A stretch of DNA of 36,111 nt from a virus. The first letter of the stretch is position 1. The number at the start of each line of letters is the position of its first letter. Positions 5,644 to 35,558 of this stretch are shown here, piece after piece. Under the pieces are notes generated by a model. That model made no database searches and was not told the DNA's origin. It saw nothing but the letters and a program-made list of their open reading frames with translations. The stretch lies in IMG/VR virus record IMGVR_UViG_3300035199_001176, positions 1 through 36,111 of that record, one strand, 5' to 3'. A program made the position numbers and the translations under genes.

Positions 5644-6236
5644 ACGTGGCGTCGGCGCAGAGCGAGATGGGGTCGCACGTCACCATGGTGCGGGCATCGA
5701 ACACGCAGGTCGAGATCCTCAGTTTTGGGCATGTTTATGCGGTGCTGCATGGCGAGAACGGGCAGGCGGTGTTCGATCACTACCAAGCCCTGCCGCGACA
5801 ACGCCGCAACATCTTCGCCGAAGGCATCCTCATGGGGCGCGAGGTGGCGCTGCGTTCGGCGGAGGTGGAGCGCTTGTTCGTGCGCGACACGGCTGATGCG
5901 GCGAGTTCTAACCTCGAGGTGTTCATCCAGATCGGCGGGCAGGGATTCTGCCAGGAGTTCGAGCCAAGGCGCATCTCCGACTGGCTGCGCATTTTTACCG
6001 AGGCACTGCACCGGCATTTCAGGCCTCTCGATCTCACGACAGCGAGTGCGCAGAGCGACGGGGAATTGACGGAGGCCGAGGCGGATGTGTGGTGCGCGGC
6101 GGAGCGCGAAGCGATGAAGACGAGCAATGATCCGTGGGCGTGGGAAGCGGCGGCCCGCACGGCGCTCAGGAAGTATCGGGAGGATGGAGCAAGAGTTGAG
6201 CATCAAGCGATGAGGACAGGAGGTGATGAATGTTAG
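5640..6236 (+). CDS. Hypothetical early phage protein
   Basis: This 198-aa soluble protein is translationally coupled to the GcrA-like gene by an ATGA overlap, which decides the start. No known domain is recognised. It contains a beta-rich region (QVEILSFGHVYAVLHGENG), a basic helix (LPRQRRNIFAEGIL) and an acidic helical C-terminal part (ELTEAEADVWCAAEREAMK). It is the last gene of this early block before the reverse-strand insertion. Confidence 0.7.
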   Translation: MNVASAQSEMGSHVTMVRASNTQVEILSFGHVYAVLHGENGQAVFDHYQALPRQRRNIFAEGILMGREVALRSAEVERLFVRDTADAASSNLEVFIQIGGQGFCQEFEPRRISDWLRIFTEALHRHFRPLDLTTASAQSDGELTEAEADVWCAAEREAMKTSNDPWAWEAAARTALRKYREDGARVEHQAMRTGGDEC

Positions 6237-6316
6237 CCGACTCCTCGAATGCAAAAATCAGGCGCGGTACCTGTTTCGCCTCAGGCCAAACCACCAAACG
6301 ATTGGGTCTGGCGAGC

Positions 6317-7345
6317 TTACTCGCAACCATCCGGGGGTATGTTGAGATCAGCTTCGAACCCGCCTTCTTTGAACGAGAAGTACGATATCCCGATCTGACT
6401 GTATGTGCCCCCGGGGTCGGAGATGTAGTACTCCTCACTGACGATAAAATCCCCTTCGCCGCTAAGGGTTTGCGAAATACCCGCTTCGTGCTTCTCCCTG
6501 TCTTCGAGCGGGCAGGACAGTGCCTGAAAATGGCCGCCGTCCAAAGTTTCGGTGTCTTCCCATCGCCACACCGACTCAAACTGCTCGTAGGGTCCAACAA
6601 CAGTAGCAGTCGACGACACTTCTATCGTGGAGCGTTCAAAGTTTGCGTCCGAAACATTCGCAAAGGCGAATGCTGCATTGGTCAACTCGGCATTCTCAAA
6701 CCACCCGCTTGTGACGTTCGCACCGACGAAATTCGCACCGGTGAGAATTGCATTGTCGAACGCAACATACTCAAGAATCGCTCCTGTCATATCGGCGCCC
6801 GCCAGCGTCGCCTTTTTAAACCTTCCATCAGAGAACACCGCCTCACGCATGCTCACCCTGCTAAGGTTGGCACCATCAAAATTGCTGTCCGGCGCTTTTA
6901 CAAAATTCAAATAGGTGAGCACATTGGTTGCAGCATTGGCCGGCGGGGAAAGATCGATGCCGATCAATTGAACATTTTGACTGTTCAAGAATTCAACGGC
7001 CCAGATCTTCCCGGAGTTTCCAGGCGCGTTGATCGTGAGCAATTGCCAAGCGAGGCCCAAGCGCCCTTCTTCGCGCGCCACGCGCTCCTCTTCCATGGCG
7101 GCCCGTTCGACGGTTCGTGCCGCGCGTTCTTCCGCAACCACACCACGCTCTATGAAGCGAAAGACGACATCAACAGTGAACGCGATGAGGGCGATCGGGA
7201 TTCCGATCGCAGCCATGATTCTGATGATGTGGAGTCGGTCGAACCAATCTGCGCATCTTTGAAGGCGGGAACGCGGGCTTGCGGTCGCGCCGCGAAGTCG
7301 ACGTGCTTGCACGTAATTCAGCTTAGGCTTTGGCGCTATCCTCAT
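6317..7345 (-). CDS. Membrane-anchored pentapeptide-repeat protein
   Basis: A 342-aa protein on the strand opposite all neighbours. ATG 7345 is chosen because GGGGG lies about 5 nt upstream and the frame above it is the antisense of real genes. It has a basic cytosolic N-terminus, one TM helix (about 42-62: IMAAIGIPIALIAFTVDVVF), a charged helical stretch (65-95) and pentapeptide repeats A(D/N)LXX in about 153-245 (SNFDGANLSRV, ATLAGADMTGA, AILTGANFVGA, AELTNAAF). The C-terminal ~90 aa is beta-rich and unassigned. Pentapeptide folds are right-handed beta-helices used for protein contacts. Cargo status is inferred from orientation and composition. Confidence 0.75.
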   Translation of the reverse strand: MRIAPKPKLNYVQARRLRGATASPRSRLQRCADWFDRLHIIRIMAAIGIPIALIAFTVDVVFRFIERGVVAEERAARTVERAAMEEERVAREEGRLGLAWQLLTINAPGNSGKIWAVEFLNSQNVQLIGIDLSPPANAATNVLTYLNFVKAPDSNFDGANLSRVSMREAVFSDGRFKKATLAGADMTGAILEYVAFDNAILTGANFVGANVTSGWFENAELTNAAFAFANVSDANFERSTIEVSSTATVVGPYEQFESVWRWEDTETLDGGHFQALSCPLEDREKHEAGISQTLSGEGDFIVSEEYYISDPGGTYSQIGISYFSFKEGGFEADLNIPPDGCE

Positions 7346-7427
7346 CGAAACCCCCGGCTCGTGAACTTGCCATCCGAGATCGTGAAGTTTTGCCGACGGC
7401 GGGTCAAGCGCGGCACCTCGTGGGCGA

Positions 7428-7817
7428 ATGAGGGCAGAGACGCTTTCGAAGGCGGCGCCGCTCGTCACACAAAGCGAGCGCGCAATGGTTGAAACTACGC
7501 CGTTGCGGCTACTTGCTACCCGCGCCCATGTGGCGTCGCTCAAGGGCATGGCGATGACAGACCCAGAGCGCCGCTCGTTGGCGAGCGTGTGCGAGACCAC
7601 GGCCAGCGCGATTGAGACGCCGAGCGAAAACGAGCGCGCGCTCCTGCTCATGGTGAGACTGGCAATCGAGAACCAGTTCCGTCCCGTTGCCTGCGAGCTG
7701 CTCAAGATCCATGTGCGCCGTGTGACCGCGGACATCGCACAAGCGGCACAGCGGGTGGGTCCGAAACCGGGACCCAACGACTGGACAACGAAACAAGGTC
7801 TCAATGGATATGGCTGA
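7428..7817 (+). CDS. Hypothetical phage protein
   Basis: A 129-aa protein (110 aa if ATG 7485 is used; neither start has a good SD). It is helical, with a conserved-looking segment ENERALLLMVRLAIENQF. No family is recognised. It ends 18 nt before the DnaA-domain protein and resumes the rightward early operon after the reverse-strand pentapeptide gene. The 82-bp gap before it must carry the promoter of that divergent gene. Confidence 0.55.
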   Translation: MRAETLSKAAPLVTQSERAMVETTPLRLLATRAHVASLKGMAMTDPERRSLASVCETTASAIETPSENERALLLMVRLAIENQFRPVACELLKIHVRRVTADIAQAAQRVGPKPGPNDWTTKQGLNGYG

Positions 7818-7835
7818 GCTGAAGGAGTGGCTGTG

Positions 7836-8327
7836 ATGTCGAAGAATGTCGGTACTGACGCGCCGCAGGGAACATTGGAGCAGCGGAACGAAGCCTTTCT
7901 TGCGCTGCTGGCGGCGGCGTATCCACGGATGGTGCCGCACCGCTTAGAGCTGGCCAGAGAAGTCCCGCCGACTCCCGATTTCCAACCGGCGGCACCGGAC
8001 ACGGCCGATCGCGACTGGCTATATCTGGGGAGCAATATGCCGCCCCGGGTGGGGGCAATCCTGCGGGCAACGGCGGAGGTATCCGGCGTCTCCCGACACG
8101 ACCTGATAGGTCCCGCTCGACACCGGCACCTGGTGCGCTGGCGCCAGGCGGCAATCTGGTTGGCGCGCGATCTGATCACCGCGAGCTATTCGGGCATCGG
8201 CCGGGTGATGGGCGGGCGCGACCACTCGACCGTCATGCACAGCGTCGAGCGCGTGCGCCGTCACAAGAGCCTATATGCCGACCACATCGCCCGTATTCGA
8301 GATCAACTGCAAAGGATGCACCCATGA
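7836..8327 (+). CDS. DnaA C-terminal domain (domain IV) protein
   Basis: A 163-aa protein whose C-terminal ~90 residues match the DNA-binding domain IV of DnaA: a basic-loop/HTH segment (VSRHDLIGPARHRHLVRWRQAAIWLARDL) and the signature GGRDHSTVMHSVERV. The ATPase domains are absent. AAGGAG lies 8 nt before ATG 7836. Its stop overlaps the start of the O-like gene (ATGA). It may recognise DnaA-box-like sequences at the phage origin, recruit the host initiator, or act as a regulator; the sequence cannot separate these. Confidence 0.88.
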   Translation: MSKNVGTDAPQGTLEQRNEAFLALLAAAYPRMVPHRLELAREVPPTPDFQPAAPDTADRDWLYLGSNMPPRVGAILRATAEVSGVSRHDLIGPARHRHLVRWRQAAIWLARDLITASYSGIGRVMGGRDHSTVMHSVERVRRHKSLYADHIARIRDQLQRMHP

Positions 8328-9013
8328 GGGAGTTTTCAAAAATCGCGCCCAACATTTGGAGCTCGAAAAAATTCAAGAGCCTCGAGACCAGCGACGATAG
8401 GCTTGCCTACTTCTATCTCCTGACCTCACCACACTCTAACTGGTGTGGTTGCTATAGCCTTCCCATAGGCTATATGGCGGCCGATCTGGGGTGGTCGTTG
8501 GAAGCCTCCCGAAAGGCTATCGATAGCCTATCGAAAGGCTATTTGATCAAGTACGACGAGGCGGAAAATACCGTTTTGATCGTCAATTGGTTCGCTCACA
8601 ACCCCCCGACGAACTCAAAACACGCGGTCGGCATTTGGAAAAATCTCTGTCGGGCGAACTCTGAAACCCTACAAGTCGAGGCAGCTCAAGCACTTGTGGC
8701 GATTTGCGAGGCCAAGGGCTTTGCCTTGCCGCAGGCCTGTCTCGACGAAATTGCAAAGGCTATCGATAGGGTATCGAAAGGGTATCGCCATGGAGATAGA
8801 GATAGAGATGGAGATAGAGATGGAGATGAAGACGGAGATAAGAGTGAGACAGAGAAACAGATAATTACTTCTGAGGCATCAGCGTTTTGCACGGGGCACG
8901 ACGGGCTCGGCAACGGGGCTGTGGAAAACCACGGGGCCGGCAGCACCGGCAGGCCGGGCGGCGAGGTGGTGGCGTTGCCAGGGTGCGACGAAGCGCAAGG
9001 CCGGGTCGGGTGA
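8324..9013 (+). CDS. O-like replication initiation protein
   Basis: A 229-aa protein with an N-terminal winged-helix region (REFSKIAPNIWSSKKFKSLE, YFYLLTSPHSNWCGCYSL, MAADLGWSLEASRKAIDSLSKGYL) typical of phage replisome organisers. It is followed by a helical segment, a charged linker of alternating aspartate and a Gly-rich tail. Iteron-like DNA repeats (8453-8785) lie inside the gene, as in lambda O. They give the protein two related segments, KAIDSLSKGY and KAIDRVSKGY. No helicase loader of the lambda P type follows directly. Initiator function is inferred from fold, neighbours and repeats. Confidence 0.65.
   Translation: MREFSKIAPNIWSSKKFKSLETSDDRLAYFYLLTSPHSNWCGCYSLPIGYMAADLGWSLEASRKAIDSLSKGYLIKYDEAENTVLIVNWFAHNPPTNSKHAVGIWKNLCRANSETLQVEAAQALVAICEAKGFALPQACLDEIAKAIDRVSKGYRHGDRDRDGDRDGDEDGDKSETEKQIITSEASAFCTGHDGLGNGAVENHGAGSTGRPGGEVVALPGCDEAQGRVG
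8453..8785. repeat. Iteron-like AGGCTAT repeats, candidate replication origin
   Basis: A 31-bp segment at 8512-8542 recurs at 8755-8785 with three mismatches, same strand and same reading frame. The core AGGCTAT is found at 8467, 8514, 8536 and 8757, and inverted at 8454 and 8523. The copies at 8514-8529 form a perfect 16-bp palindrome (AGGCTATC/GATAGCCT), and those at 8453-8474 an 8-bp inverted repeat with a 6-bp spacer. Clustered repeats inside an initiator gene are the lambda-type origin arrangement. Confidence 0.6.
8792..8840 (+). repeat. GAGATA/GAGATG hexamer tandem repeat
   Basis: A purine-only stretch of near-perfect 6-bp repeats directly after the second iteron-like segment. It encodes alternating Asp with Arg/Gly/Glu (GDRDRDGDRDGD). 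It is a charged protein linker and, as one-strand purine DNA, could help strand opening or vary in copy number. Confidence 0.8.
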
Positions 9014-9021
9014 GCGAAGCG

Positions 9022-9663
9022 ATGTCAGCACGGCACGAACAGAGCGTGGACTGGCGACTGGTCGCAGATGCGGTCGAGGCGCGGATCAACGGCCAGAGCT
9101 GGCCGGAGGCGGCGGCGGGTCGCGACGAGGCCGCGGCACCCGAGCCGCAAACGGCGGCGGCCTGGTACGCGCTGAAGGTGCCGGGGGGCAAAGAACTGGC
9201 GGCCGAGGAGATCCTATTGCGCCGAGGCCATGTGGCCTTCACGCCGCTTGTCATCCGGACACGTCGCCCCAACGGCTACTCGAAGCGCAAGGAGCGCGTC
9301 GAGGTGCCCATGCTGCCGGGCTACACCTTCGCCGGCTTCAGCGGGCCGCCGGACTGGCTGGAACTGTTTCAGCTGAGTTTGGTGCGCGGTGTTGTCGGCA
9401 TAGCGGGTGTACCAATGCAGATCCCACACGACGACTTGCGCCCGCTGTTCGAGTGCCACGGCCGGCCCGCGATTGTCGCCAAAACGCGAGCCAGGCTCAA
9501 GCCAGGCGACCGGGCCCGCTTCCACGTTGGTTCGTTCAGTGGCCTGTTCATGACTGTCGAACGGGTCGCCAACGGCCGCGCCGCCGGCATGCTCAACGCA
9601 CTCGGTGGCGTGGTGCCGGTTGAGGCGCCGCTGGAGTTGTTGGAGATTGGGTGCCTAGAGTAA
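9022..9663 (+). CDS. NusG-like protein (NGN + KOW)
   Basis: A 213-aa protein with a helical N-terminal extension (1-45), an NGN domain (about 47-145: AWYALKVPGGKELAAEEILLRRG, VPMLPGYTFAGF, VRGVVGIAG) and a C-terminal KOW-like beta domain (about 158-205: LKPGDRARFHVGSFSGLF, ALGGVVPVEAP). NusG/RfaH proteins bind RNA polymerase and suppress pausing or termination. As the last gene of the early block and the only transcription-elongation protein present, it is a candidate late antiterminator taking the place of lambda Q. GTG 9010 (overlapping the previous stop) is an alternative start. Confidence 0.85.
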   Translation: MSARHEQSVDWRLVADAVEARINGQSWPEAAAGRDEAAAPEPQTAAAWYALKVPGGKELAAEEILLRRGHVAFTPLVIRTRRPNGYSKRKERVEVPMLPGYTFAGFSGPPDWLELFQLSLVRGVVGIAGVPMQIPHDDLRPLFECHGRPAIVAKTRARLKPGDRARFHVGSFSGLFMTVERVANGRAAGMLNALGGVVPVEAPLELLEIGCLE

Positions 9664-9770
9664 CACCGTTCTCGAATAGAAAAGGTCGCTCACTTGTTAT
9701 TGCAATCTAGGTGCAGCGAATGCAAAATATCTTGCGGAATAATGATCAGTGGGGTCGGGGGGGTGTTTCA

Positions 9771-10523
9771 ATGAGGTCATTTAAGATTTATTCGATGCAC
9801 AAAAATGCATTTGCACTTATCTGCATTACGCTCATTTCTCTCATATCCATAGATATTGATAAACACGCTGGCGCTGTGGATATTCCATTTACAAATACGG
9901 GAAACTGTACGGCTGCAACACCATGTCTTATCCACTCACGGGCAGATCAGCTTGTCGACATTGTGCGTGTATGTCGGACAAATCTGGCCGGCGCCCACCT
10001 GATGAGCTTCCTTGGGTACGAACAAACTGCGGCTTCGGGCGTTACTCCAATTTCGGTCGCAGACACCCGACGTATCGGATGCGCCTTTATCAGCGCATCG
10101 AAAGTTTACGTAGCTATGGATCCGCAGATTACGGGTACAATAATTATTCAAGCCTTCGATCATGATAATTCCGGAACACCTACCGGAAGATTTGGCGACT
10201 ACCGAAACATCGATTTCGCTCAAGGTGGATTTAGCAGTCAAGTCCAGACGATCGCGGATACGCAGTACCCAAGAGATCATCGCATATGTGCCGGCGGTAG
10301 CAATTCTGTGAAGATCAACTACGAAAGAAATGGTTCCACTGAAACTCTCACGATCGATGGCATCTCAATGCCAGCTGGAAACGGCGTCGTTCACGCTAAC
10401 TGTGTAAGGGTGAATTCTAATCACATTGAGATCGTAAGAGTGAATGCAACCGGCCAAGGCACACCGGGCGTTGTTGTTCGGGCCGGCGACTGTTTAGTAA
10501 ACAATATCACTTGTGGACGTTGA
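9771..10523 (+). CDS. Secreted Cys-rich protein of unknown function (cargo gene)
   Basis: A 250-aa protein with a signal peptide: basic start, hydrophobic stretch (NAFALICITLISLISI) and likely cleavage after KHAGA near residue 35. The mature part has eight Cys, enough for four disulfides, and a beta-rich, Asn/Thr-rich composition typical of exported proteins. No family is recognised. It is distinctly AT-richer than the flanking phage genes, and a run of G lies about 9 nt before ATG 9771. Its last codons (ITCGR) fall in a segment duplicated 1.5 kb downstream. Expression may be independent of the lytic operon. Confidence 0.65.
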   Translation: MRSFKIYSMHKNAFALICITLISLISIDIDKHAGAVDIPFTNTGNCTAATPCLIHSRADQLVDIVRVCRTNLAGAHLMSFLGYEQTAASGVTPISVADTRRIGCAFISASKVYVAMDPQITGTIIIQAFDHDNSGTPTGRFGDYRNIDFAQGGFSSQVQTIADTQYPRDHRICAGGSNSVKINYERNGSTETLTIDGISMPAGNGVVHANCVRVNSNHIEIVRVNATGQGTPGVVVRAGDCLVNNITCGR

Positions 10524-20019: not shown

Positions 20020-20481
20020 ATGGCCAAAAAGCAATATGAAGTCGTGCGCGGAACTCTCAAGCTCGGCGAAAAGGACGATCAGACTTTTACTCTCGGAGAC
20101 ACGCTTTCGCTCGACGAAAAAGACGCCGAACGCCTAGTTGCGGCGGGAACACTCGCGCCCCTCAGCAAGCGCGCACGCGGAAAGTCGGCTGACGCCGCCG
20201 TCGAGAAAGTCGCAGAGGAGAAGCGAACTCAAATCGTCAGCGCCGCGGTGGATGAGGCGAAAAAGATCGTCGACGATGCCAAGGCGGAAGCAGCAAAGCT
20301 CACCACCGCCGCGACGGATGAAGCGAAAAAGATCGTCGAGTCTGCCGAAACTGAAGCGACGAAGATCGTCAAAGCCGCGACCGATGAAACGGAAGCGATT
20401 GTTGAATCTGCCAAAGCGGAAGCCGAGAAAACTGGCAAAACTGCCAGTGGCGGCAACCCGCCGACCGGCGGCAACGGTTAA
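20020..20481 (+). CDS. FI-position protein with 22-residue helical repeats
   Basis: A 153-aa protein between coat and FII-like genes, where lambda has FI, the packaging accessory. Residues 1-50 form a small domain (YEVVRGTLKLGEKDD, LSLDEKDAERLVAAG). Residues 75-140 are three tandem 22-aa repeats with consensus AATDEAKKIVESAKAEATKI, amphipathic and Lys/Glu-rich, likely an extended helix or coiled coil. The end is Gly-rich. FI function is positional; the repeat resembles apolipoprotein/LEA-type 11-mers but no homology is claimed. Confidence 0.7.
   Translation: MAKKQYEVVRGTLKLGEKDDQTFTLGDTLSLDEKDAERLVAAGTLAPLSKRARGKSADAAVEKVAEEKRTQIVSAAVDEAKKIVDDAKAEAAKLTTAATDEAKKIVESAETEATKIVKAATDETEAIVESAKAEAEKTGKTASGGNPPTGGNG
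20242..20439 (+). repeat. Three tandem 66-bp coding repeats
   Basis: Three imperfect 66-bp units encode the 22-aa helical repeats of the FI-position protein. The first two units are most alike (VDEAKKIVDDAK / TDEAKKIVESAE). Copy number could change by recombination. Confidence 0.8.
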
Positions 20482-33770: not shown

Positions 33771-35558
33771 CTAATCCGCACACCGCCCAAGATTTCGCTC
33801 ATGATTGATTTCGTACACCAGAAAATCGGCGTCTGCGTAAATTGGAACAAAAGCGTCACAAAGCATGAGTTCCATGGCAACCCAGGTTTCGACTCCAGGG
33901 TCGTTGGTGGTGTCCAGGACCAGATAGTCAACGCTGTGGTGCGCCAAGAACTGCATGCTTGGCGCGGATGGGAAGCTCGCGAAGTCGCGAACCGCATTGT
34001 GGAACGTTTCGGGGAAAAAGCCTGAAATGCCGTTCACCATGTGGAGCTGGTGTTCGCGCGCGAACCGCATGTAACTGAACTGACGTTGAAACCGTGACTC
34101 ACTTCCATTCAGAGGGTGGAGGGGGAGCGGAACGAATACGACCGAGTCTCTGGCAGGCAGCGTTCCGAGAAACTCATACACCGGTGGGGGTGCTAGAGAT
34201 GCGTTCGAGACGTCGGCTTCAGGGTTTGCAAAAATCGCGCGGTTTTCCAACAGCACCAGAAAAACCAGTAAACCGCCCAGACCAAGCCTTCCAGCTTCCG
34301 TGAGTCCGCCGAACACCCGCGCCAGGTACGGGCTCAACGCTACGAACAAAATGGCGAATCCGACATAAGCGAACTGCGGCAGAAAGCGCGTCGCGGAAAG
34401 CACGTTGAACCACTCGACCGCCGCAAATATCGGATTAGGCGCGATGTAGGCGCCGCTCCACATGAACACCGACCCCATTGACGAACAGAAGAGCAACAGT
34501 GCCGCGGTGGCGAAGGCAGGAGTGAACGTCACGCCCTCTCTTCGCTGGAAATGCCGGACCATCGACACGAGGCCAACCACTGCCACGGCGATAACGCTAT
34601 AGCCGAAGAACATATAGCCCAGCATGTTCCCAAAAGACGCCGAAAACCGGACCGCCCACAGGTACGTCACCTGGTATTGAGAAGGGCGGAAAAAGTAGGA
34701 GAGATCGAAAGCGTAGACGTTCAGGTGATGTGCATCGCGTTCAAAACCGTCGAGAAACAGCTGGAGGTATGGCTTCCACAAAGGCAGTGTAACAACGAAC
34801 GCCACGACAATGGCTGCGGACAGTTTAACCGCCGGTACGATGTGTCGAACGCCTTGACGGCTACTCGATACCACGAATATTAAAACGAGCGGCGCTTCCA
34901 CGAGGAACAGGGCCGCAAAGTGGTACGAAGGTCCGCAAAACACCGGCACGTGAAGCAGTGCGGATGCCACAAGGAACAACGGTTTCCTGTCGCGCAAATA
35001 AAGCACAGTGAACAGCAGCGGCAGCAGGAAGATGTAAATGGAGACGAGTTGCGCGTGATCCAGATGGTTGATGCGATAGATGGCGAAACCGAATGTAAAG
35101 CCTATGATCGTGGAAACGATCGAAGACCGAGAAACCGCGTAACACAAGAAGTACATTGAGGCCGCAGTCGCCGCCGACGATACGGTGAGGATTATGGCGT
35201 AGACCATGGCATCCGACGCGCCCAGTTGGGCCAGAATCCCATAGATCAAGGAGTGAAAGGACTCGATTTCGGAGTACGCCGAGGAAGCGTTGTCGGGGTA
35301 GAAAATGTTCGCAGTGAGCGGCGGTTCACCTCTCAGGACGTTGCTTACGTTCCTGCTCCATATCCATATGTGATGAAAAACATCGCCGCCTCTAAGAGCG
35401 ACCAGGTGCGGATTGGCAAGGTAGGCGCCGTACTGGAAACACGCCGTCAGGCTAAACAAAAGGCATACGAAAAGATGATGCGATGTGGCATACGAAGTTC
35501 GCTGCCCACCGTCGGTCGGAGGCAAAGTTGAAGGGCGATCCGAACCTGAAGCTATCAT
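33771..35558 (-). CDS. Polytopic membrane protein, GT-C glycosyltransferase-like
   Basis: A 595-aa protein with roughly ten to twelve hydrophobic helices between residues 25 and 430 and a soluble C-terminal part (about 440-590). A GGDVFHHIWIWSRN segment after TM1 resembles the acidic first periplasmic loop of GT-C/GT39-type enzymes that use polyprenyl-phosphate sugars, and RDSVVFVPLPLHP starts a domain common in such proteins. It would modify surface glycans. It lies convergent to the phage late operon, so it is either a lysogenic-conversion gene or the first host gene; no attR is recognisable to decide. Confidence 0.7.
   Translation of the reverse strand: MIASGSDRPSTLPPTDGGQRTSYATSHHLFVCLLFSLTACFQYGAYLANPHLVALRGGDVFHHIWIWSRNVSNVLRGEPPLTANIFYPDNASSAYSEIESFHSLIYGILAQLGASDAMVYAIILTVSSAATAASMYFLCYAVSRSSIVSTIIGFTFGFAIYRINHLDHAQLVSIYIFLLPLLFTVLYLRDRKPLFLVASALLHVPVFCGPSYHFAALFLVEAPLVLIFVVSSSRQGVRHIVPAVKLSAAIVVAFVVTLPLWKPYLQLFLDGFERDAHHLNVYAFDLSYFFRPSQYQVTYLWAVRFSASFGNMLGYMFFGYSVIAVAVVGLVSMVRHFQRREGVTFTPAFATAALLLFCSSMGSVFMWSGAYIAPNPIFAAVEWFNVLSATRFLPQFAYVGFAILFVALSPYLARVFGGLTEAGRLGLGGLLVFLVLLENRAIFANPEADVSNASLAPPPVYEFLGTLPARDSVVFVPLPLHPLNGSESRFQRQFSYMRFAREHQLHMVNGISGFFPETFHNAVRDFASFPSAPSMQFLAHHSVDYLVLDTTNDPGVETWVAMELMLCDAFVPIYADADFLVYEINHERNLGRCAD

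Follow-up and report, generated by a model that had tools for sequence, protein, structure and literature searches.

Layout of the locus

The window, by which we mean the whole stretch of DNA analysed, is a 36,111-base IMG/VR virus record. Since it carries genes for an integrase, a CII-like regulator, terminase, portal, capsid and tail proteins, it belongs to a temperate tailed phage. The host is likely alphaproteobacterial, given that its terminase is closest, within the phage collection, to that of Sinorhizobium phage phi2LM21 (44.5%) and that genome matches to the initiator discussed below include the MAGs Aestuariivirga and Dongia, both alphaproteobacterial. Two window ORFs (6230-7492, 420 aa, and 33771-35558, 595 aa) have no match in the family libraries searched, and a 66-bp tandem repeat (2.9 copies, 20233-20423) lies in or beside a coding region 3' of the capsid gene.

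The features of interest (Table 1) are concentrated in an initiator gene that, as the initial annotation had stated, directly follows a gene for a DnaA domain IV protein. The latter has an intact GGRDHSTV signature and is devoid of an AAA+ domain. Immediately 3' of the initiator lies a gene for a NusG/RfaH/UpxY-like antiterminator (9010-9663), which probably starts near 9010 rather than at the TTG at 8887. In the window, no gene next to the initiator was recognised as coding for a helicase loader, although some nearby ORFs have no identification.

Table 1. Coordinates of genes and sequence features at the initiator locus (window positions).
Feature	Position	Strand	Description
Stand-alone DnaA domain IV (DNA-binding) protein	7827..8327	+	166 aa; PF08299, E 1.8e-20
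Initiator (O-position, replisome-organizer-like) gene	8324..9013	+	229 aa; PHROG matches and AlphaFold model
Possible inverted pair of iteron half-sites	8454..8473		ATAGCC..GGCTAT; extra to the clusters
Iteron cluster 1	8501..8542	+	11-bp tandem units AAAGGCTATCG / ATAGCCTATCG / AAAGGCTATTT; overlaps codons 60-73
Perfect 16-bp palindrome	8514..8529		AGGCTATCGATAGCCT; inside cluster 1
Iteron cluster 2	8755..8787	+	AAAGGCTATCG ATAGGGTATCG AAAGGGTATCG
Purine-rich tract	8790..8855	+	6/12-bp period (GAGATA/GAGATG); peptide DRDRDGDRDGDEDGD

In a PHROG profile search, the initiator protein matches phrog_25711 (E 3.7e-32) and phrog_1701, labelled 'DnaD-like helicase loader' (E 2.4e-27), both across the N-terminal domain, and phrog_6251, labelled 'replisome organizer DnaA-like' (E 1.7e-12); no Pfam family was found for it. 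All 34 homologs in alignment A4 match both phrog_1701 and phrog_25711. The AlphaFold model, with a pLDDT of about 90 or more for residues 11-150, predicts an N-terminal winged helix (residues 1-92) with its third helix at residues 59-71 and its wing at 75-86, a helical part up to about residue 151, and a disordered linker and tail from about 152. A sequence search of the PDB returned no credible relative and a Foldseek search of the model against the PDB no match below E 0.001; the structural matches are to generic winged helices and plasmid RepA_N initiators.

Within this gene, a 31-bp repeat had been reported to occur twice in one reading frame, along with extra cores and a palindrome. All three are present: the 31-bp copies lie at 8512-8542 and 8755-8785 and are identical at 28/31 positions, GGCTAT/ATAGCC cores occur at 8454, 8468, 8515, 8523, 8537 and 8758, and the palindrome is perfect. 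The true repeat unit, however, is 11 bp rather than 31, the longer match being made up of three 11-mers. As 11 cannot be divided by 3, successive copies of this iteron are read in different frames. Cluster 1 reads AAAGGCTATCG-ATAGCCTATCG-AAAGGCTAT, with the palindrome inside, and cluster 2 encodes the stretch in which the last helix ends and the disordered linker begins. No further iteron cluster was seen in the window. The pair of half-sites upstream of cluster 1, for which conservation in relatives is not demonstrated, may be due to chance.

The purine-rich tract starts directly after cluster 2 and coincides with a local GC minimum (0.44) and a strong purine strand bias, close to the top among the 66-mers of the window, whose maximum is 0.848 at 8792. 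Its hexamer period and its adjacency to the repeats are as first described; it is not purine-only, though, but 83% purine, with 9 T and 2 C among 66 bases. Likewise, the array does lie at 8453-8840, where it had been placed, but runs slightly beyond, with the tract extending to about 8855.

Repeats are conserved as DNA

To separate what the protein requires from what the DNA retains, we generated 5,000 synonymous shuffles of the initiator gene, keeping both the protein and its codon usage. The observed lag-11 score was reached by 1 of the 5,000 shuffles. Identity between the two 31-bp stretches averaged 20.5/31 across shuffles, and a value of 28 was reached once in 5,000. None of the 32 other genes in the window (33 tested in all) exhibits lag-11 repetition at p<0.01.

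The same periodicity recurs across the family. In a set of 30 homologs retrieved by protein similarity, lag 11 scores highest of lags 5-30 (mean z 2.74; above 2.5 in 15 of the 30), followed by its double, lag 22 (1.49), with a smaller signal at lag 12 (1.06). Of the two peptide patterns behind the search, one (KAIDSLSK) is iteron-encoded, so that part of this set leans towards iteron carriers. Some homologs (L002, L070, L078, L079) have a 12-bp rather than an 11-bp spacing, and no 11-bp array was found in L010, L015, L016 and L058. When we searched instead with a DNA-only pattern, TATCGATAGSSTATCGA, which contains no protein information, we recovered 38 viral loci, most of them with a homolog of the window initiator, and the pattern usually lies inside the initiator gene, adjoining a short-period tract. 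These pattern-found loci were left out of the lag statistics and of the comparison of clusters within and between phages below, because they had been selected by their own iterons. A search of plasmid DNA yielded short chance matches only. At three further viral positions (L027 5909, L028 6932, L040 5567) the pattern stands in a similar context, close to short-period repeats in the case of L027 and L028, and the profile finds no initiator; possibly these loci hold more diverged initiators that use the same iteron.

Iteron sequence itself diverges widely among phages (GGCTATCGA, GGGTTTCGA, GGGGCTTCGA, GATACCGTATC, GCTCGG), while the period of roughly 11-12 bp and the placement stay constant. 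Despite this divergence, the two clusters of a given phage resemble each other: the match between cluster 1 and cluster 2 is 15.9 within phages versus 10.2 between phages (rank test p 4e-10). Moreover, in several phages (L003, L013, L066, L072, L077) cluster 2 has the opposite orientation to cluster 1, so that the encoded peptide changes (EGASKGL versus APSEPLS, for example) while the DNA motif stays. Iterons that are alike within a gene, unlike between phages and at times inverted indicate that it is the DNA, not the peptide, that is conserved.

Codon choice points in the same direction. When nine alleles from the enterobacterial/Acinetobacter group are compared, conserved residues have a codon identity of 0.75 in cluster 1 and 0.89 in cluster 2, compared to 0.55-0.59 elsewhere, and every one of the top 9-codon windows for synonymous conservation begins at codons 60-64 or 143-149. 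Shuffles, codon identity and inverted clusters thus favour conservation of the repeat DNA beyond what the protein sequence requires, and the refuting condition set in the initial annotation, repeats no better conserved than the protein demands, is not borne out.

An iteron cluster on the recognition-helix codons

The position of cluster 1 deserves attention because it overlaps the codons for residues 59-71 (nt 8498-8536), which are predicted to form the recognition helix. We asked whether this placement is general by probing the upstream part of each of 40 genes with that gene's own cluster-2 iterons. Significant upstream matches were obtained in 18 of the 40, and in 18/18 the midpoint falls at codons 58-70.5, which fold order and topology would assign to the recognition helix. 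Eleven of these matches are direct and seven inverted. The control genes, lambda O and those of r1t, Tuc2009 and TP901-1, lack an iteron copy on the recognition helix, setting r1t and Tuc2009 apart from the window gene in this regard. The literature searched, whose coverage is incomplete, contains no earlier description of such a placement, and a literature search with the iteron strings and the encoded peptides gave no match, most subscription journals lying outside its coverage.

That this cluster has a functional role falls a little short of being likely on present evidence, and the more specific idea that a functional iteron, the initiator's own recognition site, doubles as the coding sequence of the helix is offered tentatively. 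With an iteron cluster fixed on the recognition-helix codons throughout a large phage family, one mutation could alter the site and the specificity of the protein together. If true, new origin specificities would arise as locked pairs of site and helix, and this self-referential coupling could account for the fast divergence of iterons between phages. The placement would also render co-evolution of a DNA-binding protein and its site directly testable.

A natural case in which iteron copy number breaks the initiator gene is found in the E. coli OkiPb01713 prophage (L089 61-571): compared to L088, its cluster 1 contains an additional 11-bp iteron, which shifts the reading frame, and the record marks the gene as frameshifted.

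Comparison with known in-gene origins

Origins inside initiator genes are already known from lambda O, SPP1 gene 38, Tuc2009/TP901-1 and the rep gene of plasmid pSK41. How does the window gene relate to these? The closest likeness in layout is to the replisome organizer genes of lactococcal phages r1t (orf11) and Tuc2009 (orf16), our positive controls, in which 11-bp iterons are followed by a 5-bp tract. As in the window, their origin repeats lie inside the initiator gene, after the N-terminal DNA-binding domain, in the linker-coding part; the iteron sequence is different and the tract has a period of 5 rather than 6. The organizers of Tuc2009 and TP901-1 bind repeats inside their own genes, and these repeats act as ori (PMC8965321). 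The Tuc2009 genome record carries the annotation 'contains origin of replication'; for r1t, the data come from the genome record and from a paper that cites the original work. The N-terminal domains of r1t and Tuc2009 score 4.4 and 2.3 bits against the HMM of the window family, which is not significant, and r1t matches phrog_1701 at its C-terminal part only. It is therefore through layout, and not through homology, that the experimental evidence carries over. An 11-bp array is absent from TP901-1 orf13, which is a known in-gene origin and has repeats at a 15-bp period instead.

The label 'lambda-type' given in the initial annotation holds by analogy only. Lambda O does have an iteron origin inside the initiator gene, adjoining a compositionally biased region, as in the window. 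However, it is built of 18-bp iterons at a spacing of about 20-23 bp in a single cluster, as opposed to 11-bp units in two clusters, so that the repeats are, as had been noted, unlike known lambda iterons. Relatedness of the proteins is not detectable: by PHROG and HMM the families are unrelated, lambda O scoring -1.4 bits against the window family profile and the window protein having no match to an O-family (phrog_277-type) PHROG. The window is thus best described as a putative 11-bp-iteron in-gene origin that is lambda-type neither by iteron nor by protein, with the recognition-helix cluster as its unusual feature.

Two further systems offer partial parallels. In plasmid pSK41, the origin lies centrally in rep and encodes a linker; its Rep, of the RepA_N type, is a winged-helix initiator with the origin in the linker-coding part of the gene, a likeness to the window gene (PMC5703833). 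RepA_N initiators align with the window model from residue 1 over 87-88 residues with Z 8.0-8.4, a score that is similar to those of generic winged helices and not decisive, and no RepA_N Pfam match is found in the window protein or among the eight families matched by the 34 homologs. SPP1, a lytic Bacillus phage rather than a temperate one, has a direct-repeat origin, oriL, in its initiator gene 38 (gp38), with an AT-rich unwinding element (PMC6316719). The iterons of phage B83 were dropped as a parallel, as they serve partition and not an origin.

The ydaU gene of the E. coli Rac prophage was likewise discarded as a link to oriJ, since its N-terminal part is not detectably homologous and it lacks 11-bp iterons. 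As a separate observation, YdaU (L090 3620-4477, E. coli K-12 Rac) shares its final residues, IPPGFRG, with the enterobacterial initiators L009, L012 and L018, its N-terminal part is unrelated, GTTCAAACA-like repeats lie inside the gene, and Rac carries the origin oriJ. This suggests that DNA-binding domain and iterons may have been exchanged together on a common C-terminus.

A candidate origin and its alternatives

The proposal that an origin lies inside the initiator gene is well supported by DNA-level conservation, by the family-wide layout and by the like layout in genes whose origins are reported to have been identified experimentally. Judging from sequence, we consider it likely that the gene embeds the theta-replication origin that its own winged-helix product binds. 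The components of this model differ in strength: the iterons are very probably bound by the encoded 229-aa protein and the initiator gene probably functions as an origin, while the case for strand opening at the tract is finely balanced. Under this model, the N-terminal winged helix would bind the 11-bp iterons in cluster 2, and probably also those in cluster 1. As 11 bp is about one helical turn, the copies would present themselves on one face of the DNA. Binding to the array, perhaps with the DNA looped between the two clusters (a speculative addition), would promote opening at the adjacent tract, a candidate unwinding or single-strand element onto which the host replicative helicase would then be recruited. 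Note that the unwinding role is uncertain because not every relative's tract is AT-rich; some carry GAACCC repeats, for example.

Several other scenarios might account for the repeats. Imagine that they constitute an operator from which the initiator mainly represses or road-blocks its own transcription within the gene, with the origin located elsewhere. In-gene binding sites would indeed give autoregulation too, and two separated clusters could loop. However, operators are normally positioned at promoters, no other iteron cluster was seen in the window, and both the adjoining short-period tract and the identical layout of the r1t and Tuc2009 genes, annotated or reported with origins, favour an origin over this model, which we regard as improbable. 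Less probable still is that the repeats merely mirror the protein, as a repeated peptide (KAIDSLSKGY / KAIDRVSKGY) or as slippage-born low complexity with no function in the DNA. The two 31-bp copies do encode similar peptides in one frame, and the tract amounts to a simple dipeptide repeat. This explanation might apply to the hexamer tract alone. For the iterons it is rejected by the synonymous tests, and it sits badly with 11-bp units that shift frame at every copy and with inverted copies in relatives that encode unrelated peptides; we consider it extremely unlikely.

A further scenario, raised in the initial annotation, has the DnaA domain IV protein bind the iterons in a DnaA-like initiation system distinct from that of lambda O. 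Its gene is directly upstream of the initiator, and the close relatives L060, L061 and L067 likewise have a DnaA-C gene in their records. Yet in the virus and phage records examined, several of which are fragments, a PF08299 gene occurs only in these and the window, and is absent from L049 and L051, whose iterons (AGGCTATCGATAGCC, AGGCTATCGATAGGC) are of the same kind as those of the window; in the two bacterial genomes searched, the only match is presumably their own dnaA. Nor do the iterons resemble DnaA boxes: no exact box (TTATNCACA) occurs at 7000-10000, and the six one-mismatch boxes in 36 kb are about the number expected by chance. As L049 and L051 share the iterons but lack the DnaA-C gene, a role of the domain IV protein as initiator is not supported, and we deem it very unlikely. 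The iterons do not appear to require this gene, whose product would be a neighbour and possible accessory factor; their common partner across records is the winged-helix initiator.

Implications of the origin model

To our knowledge, origins of temperate phages are mostly unmapped outside a few models. If the candidate origin in the initiator gene is borne out, the signature of 11-bp iterons plus a short-period tract in a winged-helix initiator gene would allow the origin to be located directly in the sequence of many proteobacterial and Firmicutes prophages, those of E. coli included. It would also suggest that the DRDRDR, QEQEQE and EPEPEP stretches in these initiators have a cause at the DNA level. 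For E. coli prophages, a homolog of the gene from phage PhiR5_2, an E. coli relative with K-12 MG1655 as its listed host, is present in 540 of 5,426 complete genomes.
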